Program-made: the position numbers and the translations under genes
In this document: positions 22,896 through 37,460 of the stretch, one piece after another
Numbering within the stretch: the first letter of the stretch is position 1
Layout of the letters: the number at the start of each line of letters is the position of its first letter
Notes under the pieces: model-generated
Told to the model about the DNA's origin: nothing
What the model saw: only the letters and a program-made list of their open reading frames with translations
Database searches by the model: none
Assembly (NCBI RefSeq): GCF_024529975.1
Contig: NZ_AP024897.1
Coordinates: 682,001 to 746,000, forward strand
Length of the DNA stretch: 64,000 bases
From: Vibrio quintilis
GTDB taxonomy: Bacteria; Pseudomonadota; Gammaproteobacteria; Enterobacterales; Vibrionaceae
Reading direction: 5' to 3'

Positions 22896-22930
22896 AAAAA
22901 AGGTTAGTAACGACTATCGCTACTAACCTT
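22896..22930 (-). terminator. Original terminator of the CAT tRNA gene, now left of the island
   Basis: AGGTTAGTA (22901-22909) and TACTAACCT (22921-22929) form a 9-bp stem; on the minus strand a T-run follows. It lies directly beyond the left copy of the tRNA 3' end, so before integration it would have ended the tRNA transcript. Confidence 0.7.
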
Positions 22931-22938
22931 TGAAATAG

Positions 22939-22984
22939 ATGGTGGGCCTTCCGGGACTCGAACCCAGGACCTGCCGATTATGAG
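22939..22984 (-). repeat. Left attachment repeat (tRNA 3' end copy)
   Basis: 46 bases identical to 37383-37428. It contains the CCA end, T arm, variable region and 3' anticodon half of the CAT tRNA but no 5' half, so it is not a functional tRNA. Beyond base 22984 the similarity stops abruptly. It is the outer att core generated by site-specific integration. Confidence 0.93.
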
Positions 22985-23114
22985 AGCGATTTTGAATGTT
23001 TTGCAATGTACAGGAAAGAACAAGAATATATAATTAACTTACTGTTATTTAATGGTTTTTATTATATACCCCGTATTTTGTTGTTCACTGTGGGTTATCA
23101 GGAACCAATTATTT

Positions 23115-23135
23115 TGCTATAAATATGCTATAAAT
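23115..23135 (+). promoter_or_regulatory. Left integrase arm-type repeats
   Basis: Two copies of TGCTATAAAT (23115-23124 and 23126-23135), 11 bases apart. The same decamer occurs three times near the right att site (37293-37328) with similar flanks. Position between att core and integrase start suggests arm binding sites for integrase or excisionase. Confidence 0.6.
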
Positions 23136-23158
23136 AAATCATTGGCTGGATCTGAGTG

Positions 23159-24397
23159 ATGGCAGTAAAGAAAAAAATTACCAATGCTTCTTTAAAACAA
23201 CTGACAGTTGCAGAGCGGAGAATCAACGATACTGAGGTGAGCGGGTTTCATGCGCTCAAGTTTGAATCCGGTAAAGTTGTCTATTACTTATACTACCGGA
23301 TTAACGGCAAGCAAGCGAATTATAAGATCGGCCCGGCCTCTGACCTGACCCCGGCACAGGCAAGAGATCTGGCAAGAGAAAAGTTAGGTGAAGTTGCGAA
23401 AGGACAAGACGTTCAGGAAAACCGCAAAGAGAAAAAACGCCAAACCGAGATTAAAAAAAGTCTGCGATTGGGTATTTTCCTTGAAAAAGAATATTTGCCT
23501 TTCCTGATTAGCCGCAATCCGAAAACCGCCCAAAGACTTTATAAGCAAATGGTCAGTACCTTTGCTGATTATCTGGATACATCCATTCCTGATATTTCAG
23601 CCTTTATGATGCAAAAGTGGGTTGCAAAACGGAAAGAAGATGGCCGGGCTTCGGCAACGATTGCCGCTTCTTTTAATGCCTTGAAAGGGGCATTATCCAG
23701 AGCCGTTGAATGGGGCTTTATCGAATCTCATGATTTAAAGAAGGTGAAAATCCCCAAAGAAGATAATACCCGGATCAGATACCTTTCTGTTGACGAAGAG
23801 AAAGCCTTGCTTCAGGCCATCACAGACAGAAATGAACTCATCCGGACTAAGCGCGATTCAGCCAATAATCACCGTCAGGTCAGAGGCCGGGATGAGATGA
23901 TGGATTTAAAGTCAGTGCGGTTTGTTGATCATATTGAGCCGATTATTTTATTGGCGATGCATTCCGGATTAAGAAAAGGGGAGTTATTTTCTCTGGAATG
24001 GAGCGACATCAATCTTGAACGCCGATATCTGACCGTAAAAGGCACCAATGCCAAATCAAAGAAAAGCCGGGTGATTCCACTCAATGAAACGGCGCTGAAT
24101 CTGCTTGAGGGCTGGCGTAGCCAAAACCCGGATAAGCGATATGTTTTCACCAATGGCTATGATGATTTACCGATCACCGATATTAAAAAAGCATGGCTGA
24201 ATCTGCTGGCGGATGCAGAGATAAAAAATTTCCGTTTTCACGATCTCCGCCACCACTTCGCCAGTAAGTTGGTAATGGCTGGCGTTGACCTCAACACCGT
24301 TCGTGAACTGTTAGGCCACTCAGATCTAAAAATGACGCTGCGTTATGCTCATTTGGCACCTGAGCATAAGGCGGCGGCTGTGGGGTTGATTGGTTAG
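23159..24397 (+). CDS. Tyrosine recombinase / island integrase
   Basis: 412 residues from the ATG at 23159 (a GTG directly before it is possible). N-terminal DUF4102-type arm-binding domain (ISGFHALKF-like opening, YYLYYRINGKQANYKIG), a central SAM-like domain, and a C-terminal catalytic domain with Arg in SGLRKGELFSLEW, Lys in TNAKSKKSR, HDLRHHFASKL, LLGHSDLKM and the nucleophile Tyr in TLRYAHL. All catalytic residues are present. It sits 170 bases inside the left att repeat, typical for tRNA-targeting islands. It would catalyse integration and excision at the 46-bp repeat. Confidence 0.95.
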   Translation: MAVKKKITNASLKQLTVAERRINDTEVSGFHALKFESGKVVYYLYYRINGKQANYKIGPASDLTPAQARDLAREKLGEVAKGQDVQENRKEKKRQTEIKKSLRLGIFLEKEYLPFLISRNPKTAQRLYKQMVSTFADYLDTSIPDISAFMMQKWVAKRKEDGRASATIAASFNALKGALSRAVEWGFIESHDLKKVKIPKEDNTRIRYLSVDEEKALLQAITDRNELIRTKRDSANNHRQVRGRDEMMDLKSVRFVDHIEPIILLAMHSGLRKGELFSLEWSDINLERRYLTVKGTNAKSKKSRVIPLNETALNLLEGWRSQNPDKRYVFTNGYDDLPITDIKKAWLNLLADAEIKNFRFHDLRHHFASKLVMAGVDLNTVRELLGHSDLKMTLRYAHLAPEHKAAAVGLIG

Positions 24398-24452
24398 GGG
24401 AACTTGTTTCTGTCGAGTAGACGACACTTGTTACCAAGTGCCGCCCCTCTAA

Positions 24453-24486
24453 GAACCGTACGTGCAACTTTCACTGCATACGGCTC
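24453..24486 (-). ncRNA. Group II intron catalytic domain V
   Basis: On the minus strand the 34-base hairpin opens GAGCCGTATG, has the GAAA tetraloop region and closes with ACGTACGGTTC, matching the highly conserved domain V. The domain VI stem follows at lower coordinates. Confidence 0.9.
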
Positions 24487-24521
24487 AAGCCTCCACTAAG
24501 GCATCATTGATACCCAGCAAC

Positions 24522-25994
24522 TTATAAAGCAGTCGAAGCAGGTTCGTTCCAAGAGTTACGAGCTAGCCTTTTGGGTTTTCTCTTCGCCAAGTATTCTTGG
24601 TATTGAGGGTCAAAAGGGGTAGCAGCACTCCTAATTTTCACGTGTCTTTCGATAGGCACTTTCGCTATTTGGAACAGATTGAAGTGACAGTCCATGTTCA
24701 TGATTTTCTGCCAACCGTGAAATTGCCATTGGCCTTTACGATTGAGAAAGTACTTATGAACAACCCAGTCTTTGGACTTGGTTGGATGACGCCTAACTGC
24801 CCAGTGCCATAGCGCTTGGAATAGTTTGTGGCCGACATACCCGAATATTTGTTTAGCAACACAGTGGCGATAGTAATTCGCCCATCCCCTGAGTTTCGGA
24901 TTTATCAACTTGATAAGATCGTTAACAGGGATGGTTGCGTGCTTTTTAATGAGTTCTCGTAGATTTCTCAAGAATAACAGCGTGTTGGATTTGCTCGGTT
25001 TGATGAGCAATTTGCCTTTGTACTTCCTGTGATTGAAGCCTAGAAAGTTAAAGCCATCATCAATATGAGTGATCTTCGTTTTCTCTTCGGAGAGGGCTAA
25101 CCCTCTTTCTGCCAAAAAGCCAGCTACCAACGGTTTGATGTCGTTCACTAGCACTTCCTTTGAAGAGCAAGTAACCACGAAATCATCCGCATAACCGATA
25201 AAGTTGGCTCTAGCCCCCTTTTTCAGGGCTGTAGATTTTATTTGTTGCTCTATTCCCGCGAGAGTCATTAGCATCAAGGTTGGAGAGATTATTCCACCTT
25301 GAGGTGTACCTTCATCGGTATCATAGAACAGACCCTTATCCACATAGCCAGACTTTAACCATTGCTCTAACATACGTTTATCTACCGTGATATTGTCCAT
25401 AAGCCATTGATGCCCGATTTTGTCGAAGCAAGCCTTAATATCTCCCTCAAGAACCCATTTCGCTGATCGCTTTAGAGCCAAACATTTGAAACACTGACTG
25501 ACGGCGTCAGCCGTGCTGCGATTTGTCCTAAACCCATAGCTATTGAGGTCGGCAAGCGTTTCGGACACTGGTTCGAATGCTAGAAGATGGAGGGCTTGTT
25601 GCGCTCTATCAATCATGCATGGAATACCCAATGGCCTGAGCTTACCGTTCTTTTTGGGAATGTAGATACGTTTAAGTGGTTTTGCAGAGTAAGCCTTGCG
25701 GCTCAGTTGATTGACTGCTTTCATACGGCGTGCATCTGTGGTCCAGGTGACACCGTCTATTCCAGGCGTTTTACTGCCTTTATTCTGAGAGACTCGCTTA
25801 ACTGCAAGAAGCTTGGCTGAGCGAGAATGAGTCAAGAGCCACTGTAAGGACTTCACCTTACCGTATTTCTTTTCTCTCGTTGCTTTTGCGATACGCATTT
25901 GAAGCTTCAATACGTGTGCTTCAATGGATTTCCAGTCGATGGACTGCCATTGAGCGCCGTCAGAAGATGCACCAATCTCTTTCGAGATCACCAT
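24522..25994 (-). CDS. ltrA: Group II intron reverse transcriptase / maturase
   Basis: 490 residues from the ATG at 25994, chosen for the strong AAGGAGG site. RT domain with LRPLGIPCMIDRAQQ, the TPQGGIISPTL motif and the active-site NFIGYADDFVV (YADD intact), followed by maturase domain X (INPKLRGWANYYRH) and a C-terminal region ending KRLARNSWNEPA. No clear HNH cysteine pairs are visible, so the En domain may be reduced or absent. It helps splicing and copies the intron RNA during retrohoming. Frame is intact, so the element may be active. Confidence 0.95.
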   Translation of the reverse strand: MVISKEIGASSDGAQWQSIDWKSIEAHVLKLQMRIAKATREKKYGKVKSLQWLLTHSRSAKLLAVKRVSQNKGSKTPGIDGVTWTTDARRMKAVNQLSRKAYSAKPLKRIYIPKKNGKLRPLGIPCMIDRAQQALHLLAFEPVSETLADLNSYGFRTNRSTADAVSQCFKCLALKRSAKWVLEGDIKACFDKIGHQWLMDNITVDKRMLEQWLKSGYVDKGLFYDTDEGTPQGGIISPTLMLMTLAGIEQQIKSTALKKGARANFIGYADDFVVTCSSKEVLVNDIKPLVAGFLAERGLALSEEKTKITHIDDGFNFLGFNHRKYKGKLLIKPSKSNTLLFLRNLRELIKKHATIPVNDLIKLINPKLRGWANYYRHCVAKQIFGYVGHKLFQALWHWAVRRHPTKSKDWVVHKYFLNRKGQWQFHGWQKIMNMDCHFNLFQIAKVPIERHVKIRSAATPFDPQYQEYLAKRKPKRLARNSWNEPASTAL

Positions 25995-26671
25995 TTGCTT
26001 TCCTCCTTGAATAAAGTTCTTCAAATTCTCTCGCAATGGGAGACCAGTCGGAAGTGGGCTCACTTTCGTGATCAGACATAAGTCTGTATCTGCATCATTA
26101 CAATGTAGCTTTCGCTTTTTCCGACCTCCTATACCTGCATCACTATCGGCCACAAAGGCTTTCCCAAAGGGAGTGATACAGGCTTACCCTGTTCCGTATG
26201 TTACGTAAAATGTCAGGTTAGATGCCCACTATAGTGCGGAGAGTGCAGTGACCACGAAAGAGTACTGTCCAACCTCTTTCCAACTCTCATTGCCTTTTGG
26301 CCACAGCGTATTAACCACTTCCGCTGCTTCATCATATAACGCACCTTGAATGGATTCACATACGTTCATCATACTGACTACCTAGCACTTACCCGAATTG
26401 TGGTTTTCAGGAGAAACGTCCTCTCACGATTCTGTTCCCACTCAGCCCAACGGCCAAGTTTCGTTACATTGTCCGAGCCGCTGCTTTATTCAGGCTCGTA
26501 GGTTCATCTGGTGATACAGACGGTTCACTCATAAAGCGGTGAACAACGCTTCATACGACTTCAGGTCGCACGGACACTTTTGAGTTAGCGATTTTTTCAA
26601 ATTAGCTTTTCACGGATTAATTCAGGTATGGAAAAATAGCATTTTGTACCATAGTCGTTTGTTAGGCTAAC

Positions 26672-27154
26672 TTACTCATCATCTGGATCAGGCAAAGATT
26701 GATAATATGTAGCGATCTTCTCAATCTCATTTTGACTAAAGTACCTGACAGTCGCCCAGTCAGTATTTTCTTCAATAAATTTCCTTGCTGGTGCGGTAAG
26801 ACTTTTACCCCCCACTAACCAGTGCTCACTTACTAGAGGATGCTTACGAATATCACCTACAAACTTTTTAGCATCATCTTTTTGAACTTTATCTTTTGGA
26901 TCTTTTGCATCAATTCGAATTTGGGTTGATTTTCCCTCTAGTTCGATTGTGGACTCTCCAGTTTCGGCTATTTCTTTCATTTTTTCACCAGTGTTTTCTG
27001 GACAGTGAAGTATTAAGTCAGCACCGAGGTCGGGAGTATTAGTTGTTGTATTTCTAGTAAAGTCGAATCTATCTTCTTTCAAAGCTATATCACATACAGC
27101 TCTAGCTGTAAGCATCTCAGCTTTTTTTCCTGTTTTTTTCTTCTTATCTGCCAT
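26672..27154 (-). CDS. PD-(D/E)xK-like nuclease (Mrr-like), putative defence module
   Basis: 160 residues, not a known named protein. A restriction-endonuclease-like core is suggested by TPDLGADLILH (Asp46) followed by TQIRIDAKD (Asp82-x-Lys84), the spacing expected for PD-(D/E)xK enzymes such as Mrr. The N-terminus is very basic (MADKKKKTGKKAE) and could bind nucleic acid. It starts three bases after the stop of the preceding gene, so the two are translated together. Inside an integrative island, a two-gene nuclease module most likely acts in defence, but this is inference. Confidence 0.55.
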   Translation of the reverse strand: MADKKKKTGKKAEMLTARAVCDIALKEDRFDFTRNTTTNTPDLGADLILHCPENTGEKMKEIAETGESTIELEGKSTQIRIDAKDPKDKVQKDDAKKFVGDIRKHPLVSEHWLVGGKSLTAPARKFIEENTDWATVRYFSQNEIEKIATYYQSLPDPDDE

Positions 27155-27157
27155 GAT

Positions 27158-27598
27158 TCACCCTCTTACCTTGATAAAGGTGAAGTTATCTTGTTTAAAT
27201 TGAGTGTTTTTTAGTTCGATTAAAGAAAATACATTGAGAAAGAGTCTTAAACTAAGGCGAGTCTCTCTACTTTGCCCATTTACTATTATTTGAGCATTTC
27301 CTTGACTGTTATCTGTCAATCCAAGCTGATGCGCTGTAGATTCAATCTCTCTAATGTATCGGTCTTCCAAAAACTCAATAATGTCATCGATCTTATCGTT
27401 TGGAATGAAACTGTATGTGGATTTTTCAGCTGAGCCGTATTCTTCTGAAATTTCCTGAGTGTCCAACCCAAAGTTTTCAATCAGCTCATCTAACAACTCT
27501 ACTGAAATACCTGAAGATTCAATCTCGTTTGAATAATCCTCACAAATTAAACCGTCATTATTTTCTATAAACTGAAGTAAAGCCAGTTCTTTTGACAT
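27158..27598 (-). CDS. Unknown acidic protein, partner of the Mrr-like nuclease
   Basis: 146 residues from the ATG at 27598, which has AGGAG six bases upstream; an ATG at 27664 preceded by GAGG would add 22 residues. The N-terminal half is acidic and helical (LLQFIENNDGLICEDYSNE, LLDELIENFGLD), and the C-terminal half contains a beta-rich stretch (NAQIIVNGQSRETRLSLRLF). No family recognised. Tight coupling with the nuclease gene suggests a sensor, specificity or antidote partner. Confidence 0.55.
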   Translation of the reverse strand: MSKELALLQFIENNDGLICEDYSNEIESSGISVELLDELIENFGLDTQEISEEYGSAEKSTYSFIPNDKIDDIIEFLEDRYIREIESTAHQLGLTDNSQGNAQIIVNGQSRETRLSLRLFLNVFSLIELKNTQFKQDNFTFIKVRG

Positions 27599-28193
27599 AT
27601 ATAACTCCTGTCTGATTTTTTTGATTGCTGAAGCTAGTTTGCCTAACATTTTATTAGTGCGCATGCGCGTTTACCTCATTAGACCAGTAAAAACGCGCAT
27701 TGTTAACTAATTGTATTGCAAAGAGATTATCACCTTTTCCTCAAATATACTATCCGGCAAAACACGCACGAAGTTAGGATAAAAATCGTCATGATTTGAA
27801 TATGACTGTATGCCTGTCCAGCTTTTAGGAATTGCTGCAACATTTGAGTTATATAGATGAAAATTTTTAGGCTAAAAAGTCTGCTTTTGACTGCTCCATA
27901 GACAACTTGTTAACTCACTTTGGGGCAAAAACGACTTTCAATAATATTGCTCCAGTACCAGTGAGGTAGATCGTATTTTATAGTCCCTTTTACACCTGTT
28001 TCTAATTGATATTGTCGCCCATGCTTATCAACTTATCGCAATCTGTTTTTATATATAGTACAAACCAGTTAAAATGCAACTCCAGAAGGACAATTTATCC
28101 ATAATCTCAGGTGGTTGTGTTGTCGATGATTCTTGATCTACATTCAATGATTCTGACAAATCTCACATAAAAGACTCCGGGCAGGTGGCATAC
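27599..28193. other. A/T-rich intergenic region with inverted repeat
   Basis: No gene is visible in this 595-base gap between the divergent nuclease module and the frameshifted gene. An inverted repeat GCGCGTTTAC (27665-27674) and GTAAAAACGCGC (27687-27698) lies just before the possible upstream start of the partner gene and could be its operator. The remainder is A/T-rich and shows no repeats or convincing promoter by eye. Confidence 0.35.
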
Positions 28194-29112
28194 ATGGCGC
28201 TAAACAAACGCCGGTTTATCCGGTTAGAAGAAATCGAAAAAAGAACATCCCTGACGAAAGAAGAAGTGCTTGATTCAATTGATGATGAAGAGCTTTATCT
28301 GTGTGCAAAGGTTGAGGTGAAGCACGCCGGGGCGTTGTTCGTTGTAAAGGAAGAGACGGTGATCGGTGCGGTGTTTGATTACCGGGGGATTTGTCCGGTT
28401 AGGCCGGGATGATTCCAGGCATTTTACCGCTTACAATAAAAAGAAAGCGGTAGAGATGTTTCAAATCCTTAACCCGGAAAAAGTATCAGGCTGGCAATCG
28501 GTGACAGAAGCTTTCGGTACGATAGAAAAATATATCGCTCCTTACATGAACCAGTTACCAGCACGGCGGGAAAAACCTTTCTGGGCCTATCCGGAAGTGA
28601 TTTATGATGTCACTGGTTTTCAAAGCATCGGCCAGATGATCACTGAAAAGTTTACGGCAGAAATGAAGGAAAAAATGGGTGATGAGCTGAAAAGGCTGAA
28701 TACCCGTTACCTGCAAAACCGAAAACTGACCATTGAACCGCATGCCTTACGGATTGACTTAAACCAGATTGCTGAACGGTTTGGTCTTGAAGTGATAAAA
28801 GATGCTGTTCCCGCTCCAGCAATACAGAATCAGCCGGAAGCCTCCGGTAAAATTGTGTTTACCAATCCGATCAAACAGATTTTGCACCGGGTGTTATTAA
28901 AACATCCAAAAGCCCGCTCTGATAAAGTGCTGGTGTTGCTGCGTAAAGATATCCATCTTGAAGCCGGGCGTGAATTTGATACCGATGCGGTGATTGATGA
29001 TATCACCAATGATGATATTACTTATTTTGGCCGGGGTGATGCGGTATTAACTATGTCTTACCGCCGTTTTCAGAACCTGCTGAGTGAAGTCAGAAACGAA
29101 GTGAAAAATTAA
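28194..29112 (+). pseudogene. Island protein gene with single-base frameshift
   Basis: The frame from ATG 28194 (AGGTGG upstream) reads 72 residues to FDYRG, then goes out of frame at a run of five G (28384-28388). Removing one G restores a continuous product of about 305 residues through GFVRLGRDDSRHFTAYNKKK to the stop at 29112. Both halves read as one protein, and the second half has no start with a ribosome site near its beginning. The product is not recognised; it begins with a helix-turn-helix-like stretch (RFIRLEEIEKRTSLTKEEV). It is either a true mutation, a slippage-prone tract, or a sequencing error. Confidence 0.72.
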
Positions 29113-29195
29113 CTTCACGGCTGGACGCACGGTTATCTGCACGTGCAGATTGCGCATGTTTTTATATCTCTCAATGAACAAACGGAGATAAAAAC

Positions 29196-29438
29196 ATGAC
29201 ACAAGCCACCATTGAAAAACGCGCCTACACAGAGCAGGAAACCGCCGCTTATATCGGCATGAGCCGTTCCTTTTTACGTCAGGCCAGAATGGAAGGGCAC
29301 CGGGGTAACCGCACGGTTGCGCCACCTTTTATTAAAATCGGGCGTGCCGTTCGCTACCTCAAAGAAGACTTAGATCAGTGGTTAAACAATCACACCAAGC
29401 TGGATCACCTGTCTCAGGAGGTGGCTTACTATGCCTGA
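29196..29438 (+). CDS. AlpA-like helix-turn-helix regulator / excisionase
   Basis: 80 residues with an AlpA/excisionase-type winged helix: YTEQETAAYIGMSRSFLRQARMEG, then APPFIKIGRAVRYLKEDLDQWL. GGAG precedes the start. In P4-like elements AlpA activates the integrase or drives excision; here it lies upstream of the replication protein gene, and its end overlaps the next gene by eight bases. It is the likely switch of the island. Confidence 0.85.
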   Translation: MTQATIEKRAYTEQETAAYIGMSRSFLRQARMEGHRGNRTVAPPFIKIGRAVRYLKEDLDQWLNNHTKLDHLSQEVAYYA

Positions 29439-29697
29439 GTTCTCTATTCCTTCTCTCACCTCAGAACAGAAAAAGTTACTGCAATGGATGCACACCGGGC
29501 GGACGTTTAAAGTCTGTTCGGACTATGGGCCGATGAAAGGCGACGTTCAACCAAAATCCCGGCTGCCTGTCCGGGTGTTTTCCGGCACGGTGGATAAGCT
29601 CTATCAGGCCGGGTTGATTACCTTCGCCCCGGTGAACTTCTTCGGTCTGCGTTGGGATGAATTTTCCCTCACCGCAAGAGGGAGAAATGCTCTATGA
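29431..29697 (+). CDS. Small unknown island protein
   Basis: 88 residues, overlapping the AlpA-like gene by eight bases and the replication gene by four, so it is clearly part of the same operon. The sequence has a winged-helix flavour (SSLTSEQKKLLQWMH-like opening, VFSGTVDKLYQAGLITF, a C-terminal FSLTARGR that resembles a wing). No family assigned. It may be a DNA-binding accessory for replication or control. Confidence 0.6.
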   Translation: MPEFSIPSLTSEQKKLLQWMHTGRTFKVCSDYGPMKGDVQPKSRLPVRVFSGTVDKLYQAGLITFAPVNFFGLRWDEFSLTARGRNAL

Positions 29698-31253
29698 ATC
29701 CGGTCAGTTTTTCACAGGTCGATTGGGATGATAAAGCCTTTGTTCAGCAAAGGCTTTGTTGCTTTCCGCCGGAAATTCAGCGTTTATTGCTGCGTGAGTA
29801 TTTCGCCAAACCGACCAAGTTTGAACGCAATACTTTTTTACGCCTCACAACAGAGCAGTTAGCCGATAAGCTGTCTGTTTCCTTTAAGCAGCTTGAGCTG
29901 AACCTCAGTGAAGATGATTTACGCGCCAAAGCCAAACATCTGGCTAAATCAGTGTTTGCCCTGCGTCGGCAATTTCTTGATGATGAATTTTCCCTTGAAC
30001 CGGTGCGTGGTTTTATTCGTCAGCAGGGCGTGATGCCGGTTGAGGGGTATTCTCTGGCCGGGGAAATGGGGCGCTATTGCGATCATAAATGGTGGTTACG
30101 AAAACTGAGAAAATCTCAGCGGCGTAATATTGAAACAGTGTTGCACCATCTGAATCAGGTCAACAAGCGAACCAGCCTGTATTGTTCGAAACTCACCTTG
30201 CAGGCCAGAATACGCCAGAAAGCCTATCAGCATGAATATCTGTCCAACACTTTTGCCGTGAATAATCTGGGACAGCGTTTTTCATTGCTGGAACTGTCAC
30301 AAAAAGGTGTCGCTGACCCGAAAATCAGAAAAGGTGAATTGATGCTTCGGGCAAGAGGTTTTGAAGAATTAGCGCAGGATTCCGGCCATGAAGCCGCCTT
30401 TCTCACCATCACCTGTCCGTCAAAGTATCACCGCAGTTATTCCAAATCCGGCGATATCAATCCCAAATGGCAGGGCTTCACCCCGTTAGACGGGCAAGCC
30501 TATCTCAATAACCTGTGGCAGTTAATCCGGGCGAAACTCAGCCGCCTGAATATCCGCTTCTATGGTTTCCGGGTGGCAGAGCCACAACATGACGGTACAC
30601 CGCACTGGCATTTATTGCTGTTTGTTGAAAAACATCTCTATCAGCCCATGGTTGAGGTGATGCGTGATTATGCGATGCGGGAAGACAGCGACGAGTCCGG
30701 CGCAGATAAACACCGCTTTACTGAAGTCAAAATCGACCCGGCCAAAGGTTCAGCCACTGGCTATATCGCGAAATACATTTCCAAGAATATCGACGGGAGT
30801 GATTTAGACACTGGCATTTATGGCGAAGACCCGCAGGAAGCCGCCGCCAGAGTCGATGCATGGGCGGCCTGTTGGGGGATTCGCCAGTTTCAGCAACTGG
30901 GCGGCTGCTCTGTGACTGTATGGCGCGAACTGAGACGCTTGAAAGACATCACAGGGCTGTCAGACAAGCCCAAAGCAATTATTGAAGCGGCTGACCAAGG
31001 CGACTGGAAAACCTTTACCGTGCAGATGGGCGGCGTGTTCTGTGAGCGTAAAGCACAGGTGTTTAAGCCTTACTATGAGCTATCCATTGATAAAGACACC
31101 GGAGCGGTGAAAACCAGCCCCTATTGTGAGAATGAACTCACCAGAGCGTTAAAAGGCGTGATTACCGCAGGGCGGGAATTGATTACCCGGATTTTTGAAT
31201 GGCGTCTTGAGGCAAAGCAAGCGGCATCTTTTTACTTGGAGTTCTGTGAATAA
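29694..31253 (+). CDS. HUH replication initiation endonuclease (phage GpA type)
   Basis: 519 residues. The HUH motif is PHWHLLLF (His304, His306), and two tyrosines four residues apart lie in TGYIAKYISKN (Tyr357, Tyr361), the arrangement of superfamily I rolling-circle Rep proteins such as P2 GpA and phiX174 A. The upstream motif AAFLTITCPSKYH is also typical. It nicks its origin and primes rolling-circle replication. Frame is complete. It starts on the ATGA overlap with the previous gene. This gives the island a replication function of its own. Confidence 0.9.
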   Translation: MNPVSFSQVDWDDKAFVQQRLCCFPPEIQRLLLREYFAKPTKFERNTFLRLTTEQLADKLSVSFKQLELNLSEDDLRAKAKHLAKSVFALRRQFLDDEFSLEPVRGFIRQQGVMPVEGYSLAGEMGRYCDHKWWLRKLRKSQRRNIETVLHHLNQVNKRTSLYCSKLTLQARIRQKAYQHEYLSNTFAVNNLGQRFSLLELSQKGVADPKIRKGELMLRARGFEELAQDSGHEAAFLTITCPSKYHRSYSKSGDINPKWQGFTPLDGQAYLNNLWQLIRAKLSRLNIRFYGFRVAEPQHDGTPHWHLLLFVEKHLYQPMVEVMRDYAMREDSDESGADKHRFTEVKIDPAKGSATGYIAKYISKNIDGSDLDTGIYGEDPQEAAARVDAWAACWGIRQFQQLGGCSVTVWRELRRLKDITGLSDKPKAIIEAADQGDWKTFTVQMGGVFCERKAQVFKPYYELSIDKDTGAVKTSPYCENELTRALKGVITAGRELITRIFEWRLEAKQAASFYLEFCE

Positions 31254-31462
31254 GTGTATTTTGAGGTAGAAATAGGTAACTCGAAAATGCCCCATTATCA
31301 TTTTTCTATGGAATAACTGATTTTTCGTCAAAGGCGAATTCGGATTAGTTCTGGTTAAGATGACGCAAAATCCATATATATCAGAGTTAATGTTTGGGGG
31401 TTCTTCAGCTCAAAAATTAACTGACTCGACAAAGTGATCTTTTATTGATATTGAATTCTCGG

Positions 31463-34400
31463 CTACCACTCAAACCTCTCATTGCTCTCTGAATCACGTT
31501 CTCCTTCTCTTTTGTATTCACTAGCAATGTATACTTCCCATTGAGCTTTTTTAGCAACCCCCAATTTTGATATATCTTCGTTAGTTGAATCTATTAATGG
31601 TTGAAATAAAGGTAAACGAGACTCAAGTATCTTCGCTCTTGAACCAGACCACCCATTTGGGCTGAAACTCGTGAGATATTCATCTAGAACTTTAACTGGT
31701 TCGGGGCATATGTTTAATAGTTCTATAGCTAGTGGAGTCCATTCAATTAATTTTTCTTTTGATTGATATGGCGTAATTATAGATGCGAGCAGATGGTAAC
31801 TATCTTTGCCATTACTTTTACACCAATCTAGCGTACTCTTGTTATCAATTTTAGAGAATGGGCTTACTTTCTTATCAAGCCTACCTTTTATTACATTTCT
31901 TATCTGAGGTTCTATTTCTTTATTTTTACCTATAAATACTTTAAGGGCTAAAATAGGATGTAATTGAATAATGGTGGACATAAATTCTGGGAAATCATAT
32001 CTGCCGATAATATGAGTCAAAATTTTCGCTTTAATTGCTTCTAGAACAGTTAAAGCATACTCTTCATTTGTACCAGCAGAAAAGCAGACATTGGCAATTT
32101 GGGTTAAACTATAATCGCTGCCACCGGAAGGCTCTTTTTCTTCTGAGTAATTGAATGATGCTAAAAGTGATGCTGATTTCTCTTTAAGCAAATCTGAAAC
32201 AACATAGTGTTGGTTTTGCTTTAGCCCATGAAAGCGCATTGATAGTATTTTTATGGCAACTGCTTGGCCGTCTTTTTGTTTCCAAATTAAATCTAACATT
32301 TCACATAGCTGATCGTCGGCTATTGGTTCGTGACTGCGACCATATGCTAAGTTTTTATACATCCAAACTGGAGATGTGTTTTCTTTTAATACTTTAAGTA
32401 TTCGAGCAATTGCATCTTGGTCGATAACGTAACTCAGTTGGACTAATATAAAGTATTTCTTGAGTTCAGGGTGTTTCATGAATTCATCTAAGAAAGTATT
32501 GGTGAGGTTGATATTAACTTTCGAGAGGTGCTTAATTTGACCACATAAGAAGTTAATGTTTCGTTCTGTCTCAGGAATTTTTTCTAATGTAGAAATAGTC
32601 AAAGCTAATAACTCTTCGTTATTATGCGTTCCTTCTGCACAGCCTTCTCCAAATTCAAATAAGTTAGAGCTAGAACCACTGTATGATAGAAGTTCAGTCA
32701 ACATAGATTGAAGTAACTCACTATCAGTATTTGCTACTTTAACCCCCAAATCTATAGAGTACTGCTGTCCTTTTTTATAACCATGCTCAATTAAAACACC
32801 ATCCTCATCGTATTCTTCTAAATCATGAAATTTCCATTTATCAGCCAATACATACATGTTTATATCGTCTAATAAGGACTTAGGTGATAATTGGTTTGCG
32901 ATTGATTGCAACCTCTGTATTTCCGTTTCTGTGGAAGTTTTGCAATCCCATTTTAAAATATCATGAATGGCAGAAAAGCCATCAGCCCACATTCCTAAAG
33001 TACTTATATTTATACAAGTACTTTCAATTAAATTTCTTAAGTTATTTTGTTGCCACAAGCTACGTAGGTTTTTGCTTAGTAATTTTTTGGCTCGCTCTGA
33101 GTGAGGAGTTTTATTAGTAATAAATTCAGATGTATATTCAATGAACAACTGATACCAGTCTGCAACATCTTGGTTGGTTTTTGGTCTATAACCAAAGTCT
33201 CTTGGGTTTGCACCAAAATCAAAGGCATGGCTTGAGGAAAAGTGCCAAGCTTCTAGAGATGAGTCTAAAAGTTCAAAAGCTAGTTCTACACTATGCTCGG
33301 TTGCGGTAGAAATTAAATTCTTTATAACATCTAAACGCTGCTCCTTGGTTGCATGAGTTCCAGATAAATAAAGTTGAAACAATGACTTTAAAATATCTTT
33401 GATAGAGTTGTAATTTTCAGCTTTATCTTCTGATAGAGTGAATTGGCATAACAATTTTGCACATATATCAAAATATTGTTCATCATAAGCAATAGACCTG
33501 ATAAGCCTTGTTATTTCTGTAAATTGCTTATTTTTTCTTGTACAAAATTCAGGCTGTTTAGCTAAGGTTTCAATGTGAAATAAAACTTCTTTAGCTGAAA
33601 TAGGAGCTATATTAGTGAGCAATATCCAAGCAAGTTCACTTTTTCCTTCGGCGTATAGTTTATGTAACAATCCATTTTCATTTAACCAATCATTAACGAT
33701 GATTTTGGCTTCTTCACATTTTGGTAAGTAGCCTAATCTCCTTGAAAAGGATTTTAGTAACCGTTCATCTGTTGATTCCTTAAAGTTATCAGAAATAACA
33801 ACTGTACTTATATTTTCTAACGCATACTTTGCTAACCTATTCGCAATTGGGTGCGGTAAAACAGCCATCCATTTACTTCGTTGCTGAACTAAATTTCGAC
33901 GCTTTAGCTCTTTAGCTGATTCATAAATATCTTTTGATGGAATTTTTGATAGGTTACTGAGAAAAGTAATATCATCACTATAAATCTTCTCACTGTTAAT
34001 TTGGAATGAATAAACTAGTGAAAGGTATTGAGCGGCTGTTTCAAGTGACTTTTCACTAGCATGACGTTGGTAAAATAGCCTTTTAAATAGTTCTTCATCC
34101 CTTAAACTTGAGATGTTTTCGTTTTTACCTATTGTTTCAGCCAAAGCCAAAGCTATTTTTGAGTTACCACATGAAAATTCACTAATTGTTCTAGAGTTTT
34201 GCTGACCTAGATGCTGATATCTAGCGTTAAGTATTTTTTCTATAAGCTCGATTGAAGATGGTTCTAAAGAGAATACTTCAGTTTGCTCAGGTTGGTCTTC
34301 TCTTAAATCATATTCTACAGTCAGTAAATTGGTGTTGCTGTTTTCAGTGCTGCATAAGGTTGTAAGAGATCTATGTAGGTCAGGCGGGCAGTTATCTATT

Positions 34401-35620
34401 ATTAAAATTGCTTTCCGACCTTCGCCAGCGATTTTTTCAGCCAAAGCTTGAGGTGTTGGTTTTGGAGAGTTTGCCATATCAGTATAAAATACAGCCTTGT
34501 GGGGCAAAGGGTTTTCACCAATGCGCTCATCAAATAAGGCTTGCACGAACCTAGTTTTTCCAACACCAGATAAACCAATAAGTCTAATAGACGCTTTTCT
34601 TTCTAATAACTTATTTCTAATAAGGTTTAAGCCGTCTAAACCTTTAAGTCCTCCATTATTGCTTGAAGATGAATCAAGCAATCTAACCTGTTCATCAACG
34701 AAATATTCACCGGATGTTCCATGGGGGCAATGTGCCCAGTTATTATATCCTTCCCATGAGTTTGTATCGTTATAAAACCTAGAGCTTATCCATAGCTCAT
34801 GAAATTCTCTTTTTTTTTGAGATAAAAAGCCTTTTATGTGCTTGTAAATCTCGTCATTTTTATCATTTGGCTTGCATATATTTTCATGACTAACTGAAAT
34901 AGGGATAGCTCTAACACCTGTTATTCCTGGATCGGCACTGTCAGGTTTAACAACGGTGACAATACCGTACATTTTTTCAGTTTCTGTTAGAACAAGATGT
35001 CTTATTTCTTTGCGCTGACACCAATCTCGATACCAAGTATTCAGCTCTCTTAAGTTAGGGTCATTTCTGCTTAAAGATGCAGCAACAATAGAAGGTTGTT
35101 GAAATGTAAGACACCTCAACAGGCCTTTGGCTAAAATATTATGGCCATGATTCGCAATATCTGCGCCAAGGTGAGGTGTTCCTAAAAAGGCTACGCCAGA
35201 AACTCTGCCCAAAAATTGTTGTACTTCGACTCTATTAGTTTGATCATTAGCTATTCTAAGTATCTGCTTTGTGATTAACCCTCCAAGACTATGGCAAACA
35301 AATATTATTTCTCCTTCGGATAATTCGGGGACTTTTAATATGTGCTCAAATATATTTACAGCGAGATCTGGTATGCCCATTCCTGAGCTATCAAATTTAA
35401 GCTTGGGAGCGTCATACTCCACTGTCCATATATTTAGGTCACAATTATCTTCAGCTAACCAAATTGGCCAAGCTTCATCTTTAGAGCCTTTTTTAAGCCA
35501 GGTGCCATTTGCGTCTCCTCCTAATCCATGTAGAAAAATGACATGAATATCTTTTATCTCATCAGAATCTGACTTAAGTACTATTTTAGCCACTGTTTTT
35601 CTCTTCAATTCATTGTTCAA
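31463..35620 (-). CDS. STAND ATPase with N-terminal serine hydrolase domain, putative anti-phage protein
   Basis: About 1385 residues. Residues 1-265: alpha/beta hydrolase with oxyanion motif HVIFLHGLGGDANGTW (His31), nucleophile VCHSLGG (Ser111) and a possible catalytic His245 in VSHENIC. Residues about 320-640: NTPase of the STAND/NB-ARC class with Walker A IGLSGVGKTRF (349-356) and Walker B AILIIDNC (404-411). Residues about 650-1385: helical, repeat-like region, the expected sensor. This effector-ATPase-sensor order is that of bacterial Avs/NLR-like defence proteins. The start is uncertain (TTG 35620, TTG 35608 or GTG 35593). The gene is visibly more A/T-rich than the core genes, a sign of transfer. 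Confidence 0.8.
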   Translation of the reverse strand: MNNELKRKTVAKIVLKSDSDEIKDIHVIFLHGLGGDANGTWLKKGSKDEAWPIWLAEDNCDLNIWTVEYDAPKLKFDSSGMGIPDLAVNIFEHILKVPELSEGEIIFVCHSLGGLITKQILRIANDQTNRVEVQQFLGRVSGVAFLGTPHLGADIANHGHNILAKGLLRCLTFQQPSIVAASLSRNDPNLRELNTWYRDWCQRKEIRHLVLTETEKMYGIVTVVKPDSADPGITGVRAIPISVSHENICKPNDKNDEIYKHIKGFLSQKKREFHELWISSRFYNDTNSWEGYNNWAHCPHGTSGEYFVDEQVRLLDSSSSNNGGLKGLDGLNLIRNKLLERKASIRLIGLSGVGKTRFVQALFDERIGENPLPHKAVFYTDMANSPKPTPQALAEKIAGEGRKAILIIDNCPPDLHRSLTTLCSTENSNTNLLTVEYDLREDQPEQTEVFSLEPSSIELIEKILNARYQHLGQQNSRTISEFSCGNSKIALALAETIGKNENISSLRDEELFKRLFYQRHASEKSLETAAQYLSLVYSFQINSEKIYSDDITFLSNLSKIPSKDIYESAKELKRRNLVQQRSKWMAVLPHPIANRLAKYALENISTVVISDNFKESTDERLLKSFSRRLGYLPKCEEAKIIVNDWLNENGLLHKLYAEGKSELAWILLTNIAPISAKEVLFHIETLAKQPEFCTRKNKQFTEITRLIRSIAYDEQYFDICAKLLCQFTLSEDKAENYNSIKDILKSLFQLYLSGTHATKEQRLDVIKNLISTATEHSVELAFELLDSSLEAWHFSSSHAFDFGANPRDFGYRPKTNQDVADWYQLFIEYTSEFITNKTPHSERAKKLLSKNLRSLWQQNNLRNLIESTCINISTLGMWADGFSAIHDILKWDCKTSTETEIQRLQSIANQLSPKSLLDDINMYVLADKWKFHDLEEYDEDGVLIEHGYKKGQQYSIDLGVKVANTDSELLQSMLTELLSYSGSSSNLFEFGEGCAEGTHNNEELLALTISTLEKIPETERNINFLCGQIKHLSKVNINLTNTFLDEFMKHPELKKYFILVQLSYVIDQDAIARILKVLKENTSPVWMYKNLAYGRSHEPIADDQLCEMLDLIWKQKDGQAVAIKILSMRFHGLKQNQHYVVSDLLKEKSASLLASFNYSEEKEPSGGSDYSLTQIANVCFSAGTNEEYALTVLEAIKAKILTHIIGRYDFPEFMSTIIQLHPILALKVFIGKNKEIEPQIRNVIKGRLDKKVSPFSKIDNKSTLDWCKSNGKDSYHLLASIITPYQSKEKLIEWTPLAIELLNICPEPVKVLDEYLTSFSPNGWSGSRAKILESRLPLFQPLIDSTNEDISKLGVAKKAQWEVYIASEYKREGERDSESNERFEW

Positions 35621-35759
35621 TATTTACAGGCTTAAAACGCCAGCCCTCACCGACTTTAAAGCCTAGGAGTTTACGTTCGCTAGCTAATCGGTAAGCCGTT
35701 TTTTCATTGAGTTTTAAATAGATCGCCAACTCTTGAATAGTGAATATATCGTCAGCCAT
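35610..35759 (-). CDS. Small helix-turn-helix protein coupled to the STAND gene
   Basis: 49 residues. ATG at 35759 with AGGGGG eight bases upstream. The sequence MADDIFTIQELAIYLKLNEK, TAYRLASERK and GEGWRFKPVNIEQ is a typical excisionase/MerR-like (HTH_17) single-domain DNA-binding protein. Its stop overlaps the possible starts of the STAND gene, so the two are translationally linked. It could be an autoregulator of the defence gene or a recombination directionality factor; the linkage favours the first. Confidence 0.75.
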   Translation of the reverse strand: MADDIFTIQELAIYLKLNEKTAYRLASERKLLGFKVGEGWRFKPVNIEQ

Positions 35760-36110
35760 TCACAATGCCCCCTAAACTTAGTCTAATTCTAACATATGAA
35801 TTAATTGAGGAATTAGAAAGGTAAGAAAAATTAGCAGACCACCCACCGAAAGAAAAAACGATCAAACTCTAACCAACTTGCATTCACAATACTTTGCCTA
35901 ATGCAAATGCAAGCAATTACCAAGAGTCATGAAAATGATTTTTGTCCAGATCCTATTTACAAAGCAAACAGACTCCCAACACATCACCCCATATACAACA
36001 ATTGACACTTAACATCATCAAAGATATCCTAGCCACTCACCAGTAACATGAGGTGACGGGTTTGGTACCCCGCGTTTACGGTTTTCACACGGCATATAAA
36101 TGCCAGCTTT
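35760..36110. other. Gene-free A/T-rich stretch upstream of the structured RNA
   Basis: No coding frame with a ribosome site is seen. The left part should hold the promoter of the small HTH/STAND operon on the minus strand. Around 36050-36080 the sequence becomes G/C-richer and includes GGTTTGGTACC, whose GGTACC palindrome recurs in the structured RNA at 36271-36276. Confidence 0.35.
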
Positions 36111-36183
36111 TTGCTGGATTTTTTATATGTGTTTTCGCACATCTTGATTTTTATTTGTCTACTATTTAGACAGGTTGAACGAA

Positions 36184-36300
36184 TTATGGTGGGCTGGACA
36201 ATGGGCGCATTTGCGCGCCGCGTCCGTGTGAGCGGTAGTACCAACCTTGTTCAGTTCACCACCCATTCTTGGTACCTCTGGGTGGTGATTCCCATTTTAT
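36184..36300 (+). ncRNA. Structured RNA, candidate C4-type antisense RNA
   Basis: Two stems are clear: an outer GGAC/GTCC (36196-36199, 36222-36225) enclosing GGCGC/GCGCC (36204-36208, 36215-36219), and a perfect 8-bp CACCACCC/GGGTGGTG (36257-36264, 36280-36287). The text ACCAACCTTGTTCAGTTCAC between them and the loop TTGGTACC resemble the C4 antisense RNA motif of phage P1/P7 and P4-like prophages, which blocks expression of an early gene and gives immunity. It ends about 20 bases before the start of the next small gene. Resemblance is from memory, so the class is tentative; the structure is seen directly. Confidence 0.5.
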
Positions 36301-36319
36301 TTTTCACACGGAGGCACTT

Positions 36320-36520
36320 ATGCCTGCAACAATTGCTTACGACCCAAGCCTTTCACAGAGAGCCCGTGAATATCTGATTCAGATTGAGGATTATCTGCGT
36401 AAGATGAATCCCTCAGATCATGATTTTCACGAGGTGCTGCTTTATATGAATAAGTTAATCACGATTCAGGACTCAATCGGTAAAGTAGTCACTTCTGAGA
36501 AGGTCAGTATCAAACAATAA
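36320..36520 (+). CDS. Small unknown island protein downstream of the structured RNA
   Basis: 66 residues from the ATG at 36320, which has GGAGG six bases upstream; the frame extends further but only through the RNA element. The protein is polar and helical (MPATIAYDPSLSQRAREYL, QIEDYLRKMNPSDHDFHEV). No family recognised. It is immediately followed by a strong terminator, so the RNA element plus this gene form a self-contained unit. If the RNA is C4-like, this could be its regulated target. Confidence 0.65.
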   Translation: MPATIAYDPSLSQRAREYLIQIEDYLRKMNPSDHDFHEVLLYMNKLITIQDSIGKVVTSEKVSIKQ

Positions 36521-36547
36521 GATATTGTTCGAAACTAAGTTAAGTCA

Positions 36548-36574
36548 GAGCCACTTAGTTTCGTGGCTCTTTTT
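36548..36574 (+). terminator. Rho-independent terminator
   Basis: GAGCCAC / GTGGCTC stem with an eight-base loop and five T directly after, 27 bases past the stop of the 66-residue gene. Confidence 0.9.
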
Positions 36575-36581
36575 GTAGACG

Positions 36582-36988
36582 GGCCATATCCGCAATCCCG
36601 ATTCCCAATGATTGACCATCCAACGGTTCAGATAAGCAATCCGGTAGTCAATCAAGTGGTATCGCCAGCCCAAAAACAAGCCATATCAAATGCAATATTG
36701 ATAGTCCCGATTCTTAATCATTTACAATCCAAGCCGTTCAGATAAGCAATCCGGTAGTCAATCAAATGGTATCGGAACCCCAAAACCAAGCCATATTAAG
36801 TGCAATATTGATAAATCCCGATTCCCAATTATTTACAATCCAAGCCGTTCAGATATGGAATTCGATAGTCAATTAAGTGGTATCGAAACCCAAAACCAAG
36901 CCATATTAAGCGCAATATTGATAATCCCGATTCCTAATCATTCACAATCCAAGCCACTTAGATATGGAATCCGGATATGTAATCAAAC
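36582..36988. repeat. Tandem repeat, about 3.5 copies of a 110-bp unit
   Basis: Units beginning CCCGATTC start at 36597, 36706, 36817 and 36926, i.e. periods of 109, 111 and 109 bases, the last copy being partial. Shared segments include ATCCAAGCCGTTCAGATA, AATCCGGTAGTCAATCAA, GTGGTATCG and AAGCCATAT..GCAATATTGATA. Periods that are not all multiples of three argue against coding. Copies differ by scattered substitutions. The block could be a replication origin with long iterons or a structural satellite of the island. Confidence 0.85.
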
Positions 36989-37292
36989 CATCTCGCTGCT
37001 ACATATTTGCTACACAGAAGTGCTTTCATGGAACCCATCTTCAATGAGCTTATCTGTTTCGGTGGTTTGGATTCATACCGGTATGGGAAATAAGCTGATT
37101 ATCCGGGTGTATCTGGTGGAGCAAACATACAAGGGCATGGATGCCCTTGTCTAAGCGCACAAGGAGGTCTTGAGCGGTTTGCGGAACCAGATATATCCGG
37201 ATTAGCAAATGAGCCAGTTTAATGAATACAGGTTTTTTGTCATTGAATCGCGGGATAGCGCAGGGGAGTTTTTCAGTATTCTGGCGGGCTGT
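36989..37292. other. Gene-free stretch near the right island end
   Basis: Between the tandem repeats and the right arm repeats no gene with a credible start is visible. The stretch is ordinary in composition and shows no further copies of the repeats. It may be decayed coding DNA. Confidence 0.35.
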
Positions 37293-37328
37293 TGCTATAA
37301 ATAATTTTGCTATAAATCTGCTATAAAT
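37293..37328 (+). promoter_or_regulatory. Right integrase arm-type repeats
   Basis: Three copies of TGCTATAAAT (37293, 37308 and 37319), the last two spaced 11 bases like the pair at the left end. Same orientation as on the left. Likely binding sites for integrase or its directionality factor. Confidence 0.6.
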
Positions 37329-37340
37329 AAAAAACCAAAG

Positions 37341-37375
37341 AAAAAGGGGTTAGGTAAAAAATTACCTAACCCCTT
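37341..37375 (-). terminator. Island-borne terminator of the reconstituted tRNA gene
   Basis: Perfect 14-bp stem AAGGGGTTAGGTAA (37344-37357) with its complement (37362-37375) and a four-base loop; on the minus strand T residues follow. It replaces the original terminator left at 22896-22930. Confidence 0.88.
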
Positions 37376-37382
37376 GAAATAT

Positions 37383-37428
37383 ATGGTGGGCCTTCCGGGA
37401 CTCGAACCCAGGACCTGCCGATTATGAG
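37383..37428 (-). repeat. Right attachment repeat inside the tRNA gene
   Basis: 46 bases identical to 22939-22984, forming the 3' half of the intact tRNA gene from the CCA end through the anticodon. The island therefore spans 22939-37428 and, counting one repeat, measures about 14.44 kb. Confidence 0.93.
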
Positions 37429-37460
37429 TCGGATGCTCTAACCAACTGAGCTAAAGGCCC
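37384..37460 (-). tRNA. tRNA with CAT anticodon (Ile2 or elongator Met)
   Basis: 77 bases including an encoded CCA. Acceptor stem GGGCCTT/AAGGCCC, D arm GCTCAGTTGGTTAGAGC, anticodon loop CTCATAA, T arm CTGGG TTCGAGT CCCGG. A CAT anticodon fits elongator Met or, after lysidine modification, isoleucine ATA. The base pair at the top of the anticodon stem (T27 with C43) is mismatched. It is the insertion target of the island, which restores the gene. Confidence 0.92.

Follow-up and report, generated by a model that had tools for sequence, protein, structure and literature searches.

A candidate NLR-like immune receptor with a predicted serine esterase effector on a mobile element of Vibrio quintilis

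The A component of the phage defence system PD-Lambda-4 was reportedly tested by Vassallo and colleagues together with a B component. PD-Lambda-4 is listed, in the accessible part of PMC10952713, as coming from Vassallo et al. 2022, and the name 'PD-lambda-4' does not occur in the main text of PMC9519451, as far as that text was available. In fungi, few N-terminal effectors of nucleotide-binding leucine-rich-repeat (NLR) receptors are as frequent as sesB-like lipase domains, which replace other effectors on near-identical NOD domains. Lipase-type NLRs are common in these organisms; the lipase activity of the sesB-like domains is a prediction, and the human protein SERAC1, in which this domain also occurs, is a phospholipid esterase (PMC4986451, in the part available). 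Alpha/beta-hydrolases were tied to membrane-lipid hydrolysis in a survey of bacterial death-like domains (PMC8195603, in the part available). Here we analyse a minus-strand gene of Vibrio quintilis that lies in a window of 64,000 nucleotides (the whole stretch analysed, contig NZ_AP024897.1) and fuses a serine esterase domain to a signal transduction ATPase with numerous domains (STAND) module and an alpha-solenoid. We consider it probable that the product is a one-protein NLR-like immune receptor, in which the sensing of infection would lead to oligomerization, phospholipase or esterase activity and abortive infection. That it serves defence against invaders in some broad sense is very likely.

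Gene start and domain architecture

The open reading frame (ORF; 31463-35620, minus strand) is open over 1385 amino acids from a TTG codon at 35620. The N-termini of close homologues read MAKI/MSEI..., and a GAAGAG stretch just before a GTG at 35590 is common to five relatives (L001-L005); the true start is therefore probably GTG 35590, which gives 1375 amino acids. Residue numbers count from this GTG unless marked as reader numbering (1385 amino acids). The gene and its parts are as follows.

31463..35590, minus strand: esterase-STAND-solenoid gene, 1375 amino acids from the probable GTG start (1385 from TTG 35620)
34805..35590, minus strand: effector, DUF676-type serine esterase, residues 1-262
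35288-35290, 34931-34933 and 34886-34888, minus strand: candidate catalytic triad Ser101, Asp220 and His235
33599..34765, minus strand: STAND module with nucleotide-binding domain, helical and winged-helix parts, residues ~276-664
34553..34576, minus strand: Walker A motif GLSGVGKT, residues 339-346
34388..34408, minus strand: Walker B motif with an unusual D399-N400-C401 (DNC)
31466..33598, minus strand: alpha-solenoid (HEAT-like), probable sensor, residues ~665-1375

A sequence-only reading of this DNA had proposed an alpha/beta hydrolase with a P-loop and a Walker B motif, arranged in effector-STAND-sensor order. The motifs are present (HGLGG 31, CHSLGG 109, GLSGVGKT 349 and LIIDN 406, reader numbering), and Pfam DUF676 and the PADLOC family PD-Lambda-4_A match the protein. 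The order likewise agrees with both sequence and fold, and we regard the effector-STAND-sensor architecture as all but certain. The serine given there as Ser111 is the same candidate residue, and becomes Ser101 once the start is moved to GTG 35590.

The esterase domain was matched by Pfam DUF676 (PF05057) at 24.7 bits (cut-off 20.3) and by the PADLOC profile 'DUF626_VIII' at E 4.4e-21. A comparison of the esterase profile with sequences in the PDB gave one 35-residue match, to an 'alpha/beta fold hydrolase' (E 0.0032). H21, G22, Ser101, Asp220 and His235 are kept in 79 of 79 esterase copies and Asp217 in 77 of 79, so that both aspartates are candidates for the catalytic position. Residues 1-262 adopt an alpha/beta-hydrolase fold, whose best match is the phospholipase PlaB, at 20% identity. 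The lipase or esterase effector proposed earlier is thus supported, and the domain is very probably an active hydrolase. Phospholipid is the substrate that we predict from the fold, with a slight leaning in its favour. Alternatively, the enzyme might not be directed at membranes at all, and would strip an acyl group or other ester from a protein, or cleave an RNA-linked or small-molecule ester, to induce dormancy. The alpha/beta-hydrolase fold is a poor guide to substrate, and carboxylesterases, thioesterases and dehalogenases are all found among the best 50 of 338 PDB matches (E<=0.001). However, the two top fold matches, clear of the rest, are the same phospholipase, PlaB, and lipases come next. 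The sesB-like domains, possibly of the same family as this esterase, are predicted lipases, and SERAC1 is a phospholipid esterase (PMC4986451, in the part available). We consider a non-membrane ester unlikely, at roughly one chance in four by our own estimate.

The fold of residues ~276-664 resembles that of Apaf-1, NB-ARC and NLRC4, with helical and winged-helix domains that come after the nucleotide-binding domain. All 54 aligned chassis sequences (the chassis being the STAND and C-terminal part) have the P-loop GLSGVGKT unchanged, and D399, N400 and C401 are each kept in all 54. By sequence, the chassis profile had five matches in the PDB, all at E>=0.24, two of which are the plant NLR Roq1. 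The 50 matches listed for the STAND/solenoid model in a fold search (VIA-align) cover residues ~276-622 and barely the solenoid; none of these 50 is an Avs or bNACHT chain by title.

Residues ~665-1375 are the most variable part of the protein and form an alpha-solenoid in the structure model (mean predicted local distance difference test score 88.0), as expected from the helical repeat-like C-terminus described previously. No unrelated metabolic family matched this region in the family and fold searches.

Kinship with PD-Lambda-4 and exchange of effector domains

We found 1678 homologues (E<=1e-3) among 8000 scored candidates. The PADLOC profile PD-Lambda-4_A (PDLC03991) matches residues 275-1384 (reader numbering) at E 2.8e-234 and is covered from position 168 to its end at 1283; profile positions 1-167 are unmatched, and the esterase stands in their place. 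Four other esterase-type proteins enter the profile at positions 162-169, and relatives of ~1270 amino acids (P0093, P0101, P0119) match it from position 3. The sequence-only reading had drawn a comparison with Avs and other bacterial NLR-like proteins. PADLOC includes Avs models, and the five PADLOC families listed for the protein at E<=0.1 contain none named Avs or NACHT; the nearest known relative by these rows is PD-Lambda-4_A, in favour of which Avs membership was dropped.

A search of genome contigs found 290 relatives, of which 80 were kept. The esterase region lies within the match in 13 of these, all with gammaproteobacterial titles, and the other 67 match from query residue 188-310 onward and have, where intact, a different N-terminal domain. 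In that domain a D-x-G-x-D ... Q-x-K pattern is invariant in 23 of 23 aligned members, and it is probably, judging by this pattern, of the PD-(D/E)XK type. No nuclease family was found in Pfam at E<=0.1 for the 23 members, nor any PDB relative by sequence at E<=1; we therefore call it 'nuclease-like'. The name 'Mrr' (P0093 is 'type IV Mrr' in one source) was dropped on the same grounds. Sorting of 280 chassis sequences by regular expression, from two overlapping source sets, gave 162 nuclease-like, 87 esterase and 31 unclassified members, most of the last with a missing N-terminus or a late called start when inspected by eye; five of 95 loci gave no ORF. Some nuclease-like relatives (L063, L076, L092, P0213, P0218) bear an additional N-terminal stretch, which in P0213 is LexA_DNA_bind (Pfam, 59.2 bits) and could be a built-in damage or expression sensor.

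In a tree of the shared chassis (72 rows: 26 esterase, 46 nuclease-like; P0124 left out because its chassis piece is too short), a single branch splits the two types, with a Shimodaira-Hasegawa-like approximate likelihood-ratio test (SH-aLRT) value of 98, and one effector change suffices. This was a quick search with no bootstrap and with long-branch and composition warnings, and its midpoint root gives no direction for the swap. Over the chassis, identity to the window protein is 32-34% for P0076, P0081, P0097 and P0111, of which three bear Enterobacterales names, and ~40% for Paenibacillus-type nuclease-like relatives. Two or more independent captures of the esterase had been suspected from such identities, and were abandoned given the one well-supported branch. 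PD-Lambda-4_B was found in one of ten genomes of nuclease-like relatives. Given this rarity, the replaced N-terminus and the absence of B from the V. quintilis genome, the gene is, by sequence, a variant on the PD-Lambda-4_A chassis and not a PD-Lambda-4 system.

The esterase is also found on other sensor chassis. A search with residues 1-262 alone retrieved 353 proteins; among the 120 best, 67 are on PD-Lambda-4_A-type chassis and 53 are not (by GLSGVGKT pattern and shared identifiers). The others include ~1500-residue proteins, two of which were scanned (P0140, P0150) and have HTH_upst_double_PIN and PIN-TPR-GreABC domains and no P-loop motif; ~770-940-residue proteins that lack a P-loop motif, many with TPR; NB-ARC/AAA_16-TPR proteins; and one nSTAND-LRV/HEAT protein. 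All five scanned esterase proteins of other chassis match 'DUF626_VIII'. In a tree of the esterase domain (79 rows; 28 of 76 inner branches marked as weak), the chassis label, assigned by length and P-loop pattern and not by domain scans, changes at least eight times, and the rows with the window-type chassis form one side of one branch, with a support of only 75.

Since one chassis bears two effectors and one esterase occurs on several chassis, effector and chassis are both modular at the sequence level. We tentatively suggest, as a proposal more doubtful than the reading of the single gene, that the PlaB-like phospholipase may serve bacterial innate immunity in general as a death effector that passes freely between PD-Lambda-4-type STAND, NB-ARC-TPR and nSTAND-HEAT receptors and P-loop-free TPR and PIN-TPR-GreABC proteins, and may be the bacterial counterpart, possibly the ancestor, of the fungal SesB lipase. 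If so, NLR-driven cleavage of membrane lipids would date back to the origin of the NLR.

The mobile element and the distribution of relatives

The receptor gene lies within an integrated element with the following features.

22927..37428, no strand: whole mobile element, 14.5 kb, between 58-bp direct repeats
22927-22984 and 37371-37428: attR/attL, the 58-bp direct repeats (97%), in tRNA-Met
37384..37460, minus strand: tRNA-Met (CAT), integration site
23156..24397, plus strand: tyrosine integrase adjoining the distal repeat (PF00589 E 2.5e-33; phrog_1)
24408..26576, minus strand: group II intron with reverse transcriptase/maturase (24522-26153)
29196..29438, plus strand: AlpA/excisionase-like helix-turn-helix (HTH) gene (PF12728; phrog_66)
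29694..31253, plus strand: P2 gpA-type replication initiator, rep (PF05840 E 4.9e-84; phrog_91)
35610..35759, minus strand: 49-residue HTH_17 (excisionase/MerR-like) ORF directly upstream of the receptor (PF12728 33.2 bits, cut-off 27)
36182..36266, plus strand: C4 antisense RNA (RF01695 61.6 bits, cut-off 45), which we take to be of P1/P4 type

The 58-bp repeats duplicate the 3' part of tRNA-Met, and the HTH_17 ORF and the receptor are placed between rep and the C4 RNA. A joined-flank search of 148 genus genomes gave a match in all; because the tRNA is common to all 148, only the extent of the alignment is informative. The alignment runs unbroken across the junction in several genomes, for example G089 (query 267-479, 82%) and G034 (263-483, 79%), with a left-flank share of only 34-38 bases in these two, and the V. 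quintilis genome itself best matches the joined flanks as two separate halves.

The V. quintilis genome also carries a sister element beside fis and dusB (C1, near 309-321.6 kb; 3000-15600 of L135). Its AlpA/rep stretch matches that of the window element at 91% over 2094 bp, its C4/repeat stretch is similar (78%), and the integrase genes of the two elements have no nucleotide match. The group II intron is 100% identical over 2169 bp, which points to recent movement. Where the window has the HTH_17 ORF and the receptor, the sister element holds an Hcp-DUF3289 gene of type VI secretion system type and a 99-residue gene; the receptor is therefore cargo. The mobile island assumed in the sequence-only reading is thus borne out by the repeats, tRNA-Met, integrase, rep and sister element.

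Other parts of these elements were also observed. Four tandem copies with a ~110-bp period, 60-91% alike, lie at 36583-36974 between the C4 RNA and attL, with similar copies in the sister element. Of two adjacent small genes at 26672-27664 (minus strand), one encodes 160 residues with a weak match to Mrr_cat that stays below the cut-off (E 0.0032), and the other 168 residues with no family above cut-off; the pair may form another small module, for defence or of a toxin-antitoxin-like kind. Rep-family elements lie beside the same tRNA-Met in two congeners (G132 C1 2812500 and G153 C1 2787381); the G132 stretch (L136) contains a Vps62/Toxin_10-domain protein and other genes that lack a known family.

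The position of the receptor as cargo of an integrating element suggests an alternative, in which the same machine would exclude competing plasmids, satellites and phages in contests between elements and would not serve general cell defence. Relatives of rep are present (E<=1e-60) in 38 of the 196 genus genomes, V. quintilis included, the sister element carries other cargo in the same slot, and some receptor relatives are on plasmids and in Tn7-like elements. The chassis is, however, spread over many phyla and contexts, wider than expected of a private exclusion gene of one element, and we regard this alternative as improbable.

The HTH_17 ORF ends 19 nt before the receptor start. By tblastn, six of 13 esterase-type genome loci have a counterpart immediately upstream of the receptor; in two of these it has 59 residues and shares 13 nt with the start of the receptor gene, which suggests translational coupling, and in others it has 39 residues (two relatives) or its frame was not recognised by pattern (two more). 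The HTH gene is therefore probably a dispensable regulator. STAND proteins include transcription and metabolic regulators, and the upstream HTH gene in six relatives, overlapping the start in two, could fit a MalT-like regulator with an esterase of normal metabolism. But Pfam lists no DNA-binding family for the receptor at E<=0.1, other relatives have a short or unrecognised HTH ORF, and the nuclease-like swap on the same chassis, the patchy distribution and the PD-Lambda-4_A match also speak against a regulator; we hold it to be very improbable.

Any match to the receptor is limited to nine of 196 genus genomes (V. quintilis included). The full receptor is encoded in a single frame in V. quintilis and two others, and is broken into two pieces, with stops, in a fourth genome (L102/L108); the remaining matches are one distant, long one (21% identity) and four short pieces. 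Elsewhere, plasmid-borne esterase-type relatives occur in Vibrio halioticoli, Lelliottia and Enterobacter. Two esterase-type loci (L003, L021) lie between Tn7-like genes and gcv genes (the latter by eye), with TniQ/TnsD, TniB and TnsA-like proteins by Pfam in L003 and 22-34% similarity to these in L021. By eye, L001, L003 and L021, from different genera, are near the gcvPHT operon, a common landing place. Integrases are present in each of the 11 genomes of esterase-type loci searched (all of the 13 loci but L003 and L006), which is uninformative on proximity and was not used. The contexts of relatives, for which the sequence-only reading had counted conservation outside mobile DNA as a point against defence, are thus often mobile but not always. 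Fifteen relatives on viral contigs match from query residue 201 or later, and none shows the esterase; an ORF was obtained for 14, with a nuclease-like N-terminus visible in 13.

Proposed mechanism and comparison with known systems

The computations establish the order and folds of the domains, the conservation of active-site residues and P-loop, the chassis common to this protein and PD-Lambda-4_A, the exchange of effectors and the mobile location. For the favoured immune receptor, we infer the trigger, oligomerization, substrate and outcome as follows. The C-terminal alpha-solenoid would recognise a mark of infection, most probably a protein from a phage or another invader, upon which the STAND ATPase may swap its nucleotide and oligomerize. 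Oligomerization could cluster or unblock the N-terminal PlaB-like serine esterase, which would cleave membrane phospholipids or another essential cellular ester, and the cell would halt growth or die before phage release.

Several observations weigh against this proposal. No esterase-type member has, to our knowledge, a phage phenotype. A defence role is ascribed to the chassis on the strength of PD-Lambda-4, which comprises A and B in PADLOC, and B (PDLC03992) was not found in this genome (0 matches; the E. coli control was positive). The receptor has no match in 50,697 phage records, and no mobile genes were recognised by eye within 7 kb of L002, L008, L009 and L015. Phospholipid was proposed as substrate from a fold match with 20% identity. 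STAND fold matches tie by Z score with AAA+ proteins, for example Cdc6 (13.1) and RFC (12.8) in VIA-align, which slightly lowers our confidence in the architecture. A Walker B motif usually ends in an acidic pair and this one ends in DNC, so that ATP turnover is uncertain.

The chassis, tied to phage defence, exists in two natural effector versions, nuclease-like or esterase. Such natural pairs (two effectors on one chassis, one effector on several receptors) could help to separate what the sensor sees from how the cell is stopped, and offer a bacterial model for lipase-type NLRs. The concept of a lipid-cleaving NLR is not new, as the survey of death-like domains (PMC8195603), the CARD-NLR systems with phospholipase effectors and the fungal sesB proteins precede it. 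In the literature searched (titles and abstract openings, with subscription papers and preprints largely outside it) we found no report of a bacterial esterase-STAND protein and no paper on DUF676 in phage defence systems. What appears new within that scope is the esterase fusion on the PD-Lambda-4_A chassis.

The window protein shares the whole STAND and C-terminal chassis with PD-Lambda-4 and differs in that the N-terminal ~165 profile positions are replaced by the serine esterase and in the absence of B from the genome. With Avs/AVAST and bNACHT proteins it shares the tripartite effector-STAND-sensor architecture and a mobile context, but no Avs- or NACHT-named family is among its listed PADLOC rows, and we know of no esterase effector in characterised members of those groups. 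The 'DUF626_VIII' profile, which by its label is presumably that of a retron type VIII effector, matches the window esterase, but here the sensor is a STAND protein; no retron reverse transcriptase was found in the element, and the one nearby is the group II intron maturase. In CARD-NLR systems a death-fold domain recruits the phospholipase effector, which is not part of the receptor chain, whereas in the window protein the effector is fused. An NLR-type protein is combined with a lipid-cleaving effector in both, for CARD-NLR systems according to PMC13236601. The SesB-NACHT/NB-ARC-repeat NLRs are fungal and have ANK, WD or TPR sensors, and any common descent of their esterases with that of the window protein is hypothetical; they share with the window protein a predicted N-terminal lipase or esterase effector on a STAND receptor, and the exchange of effectors.

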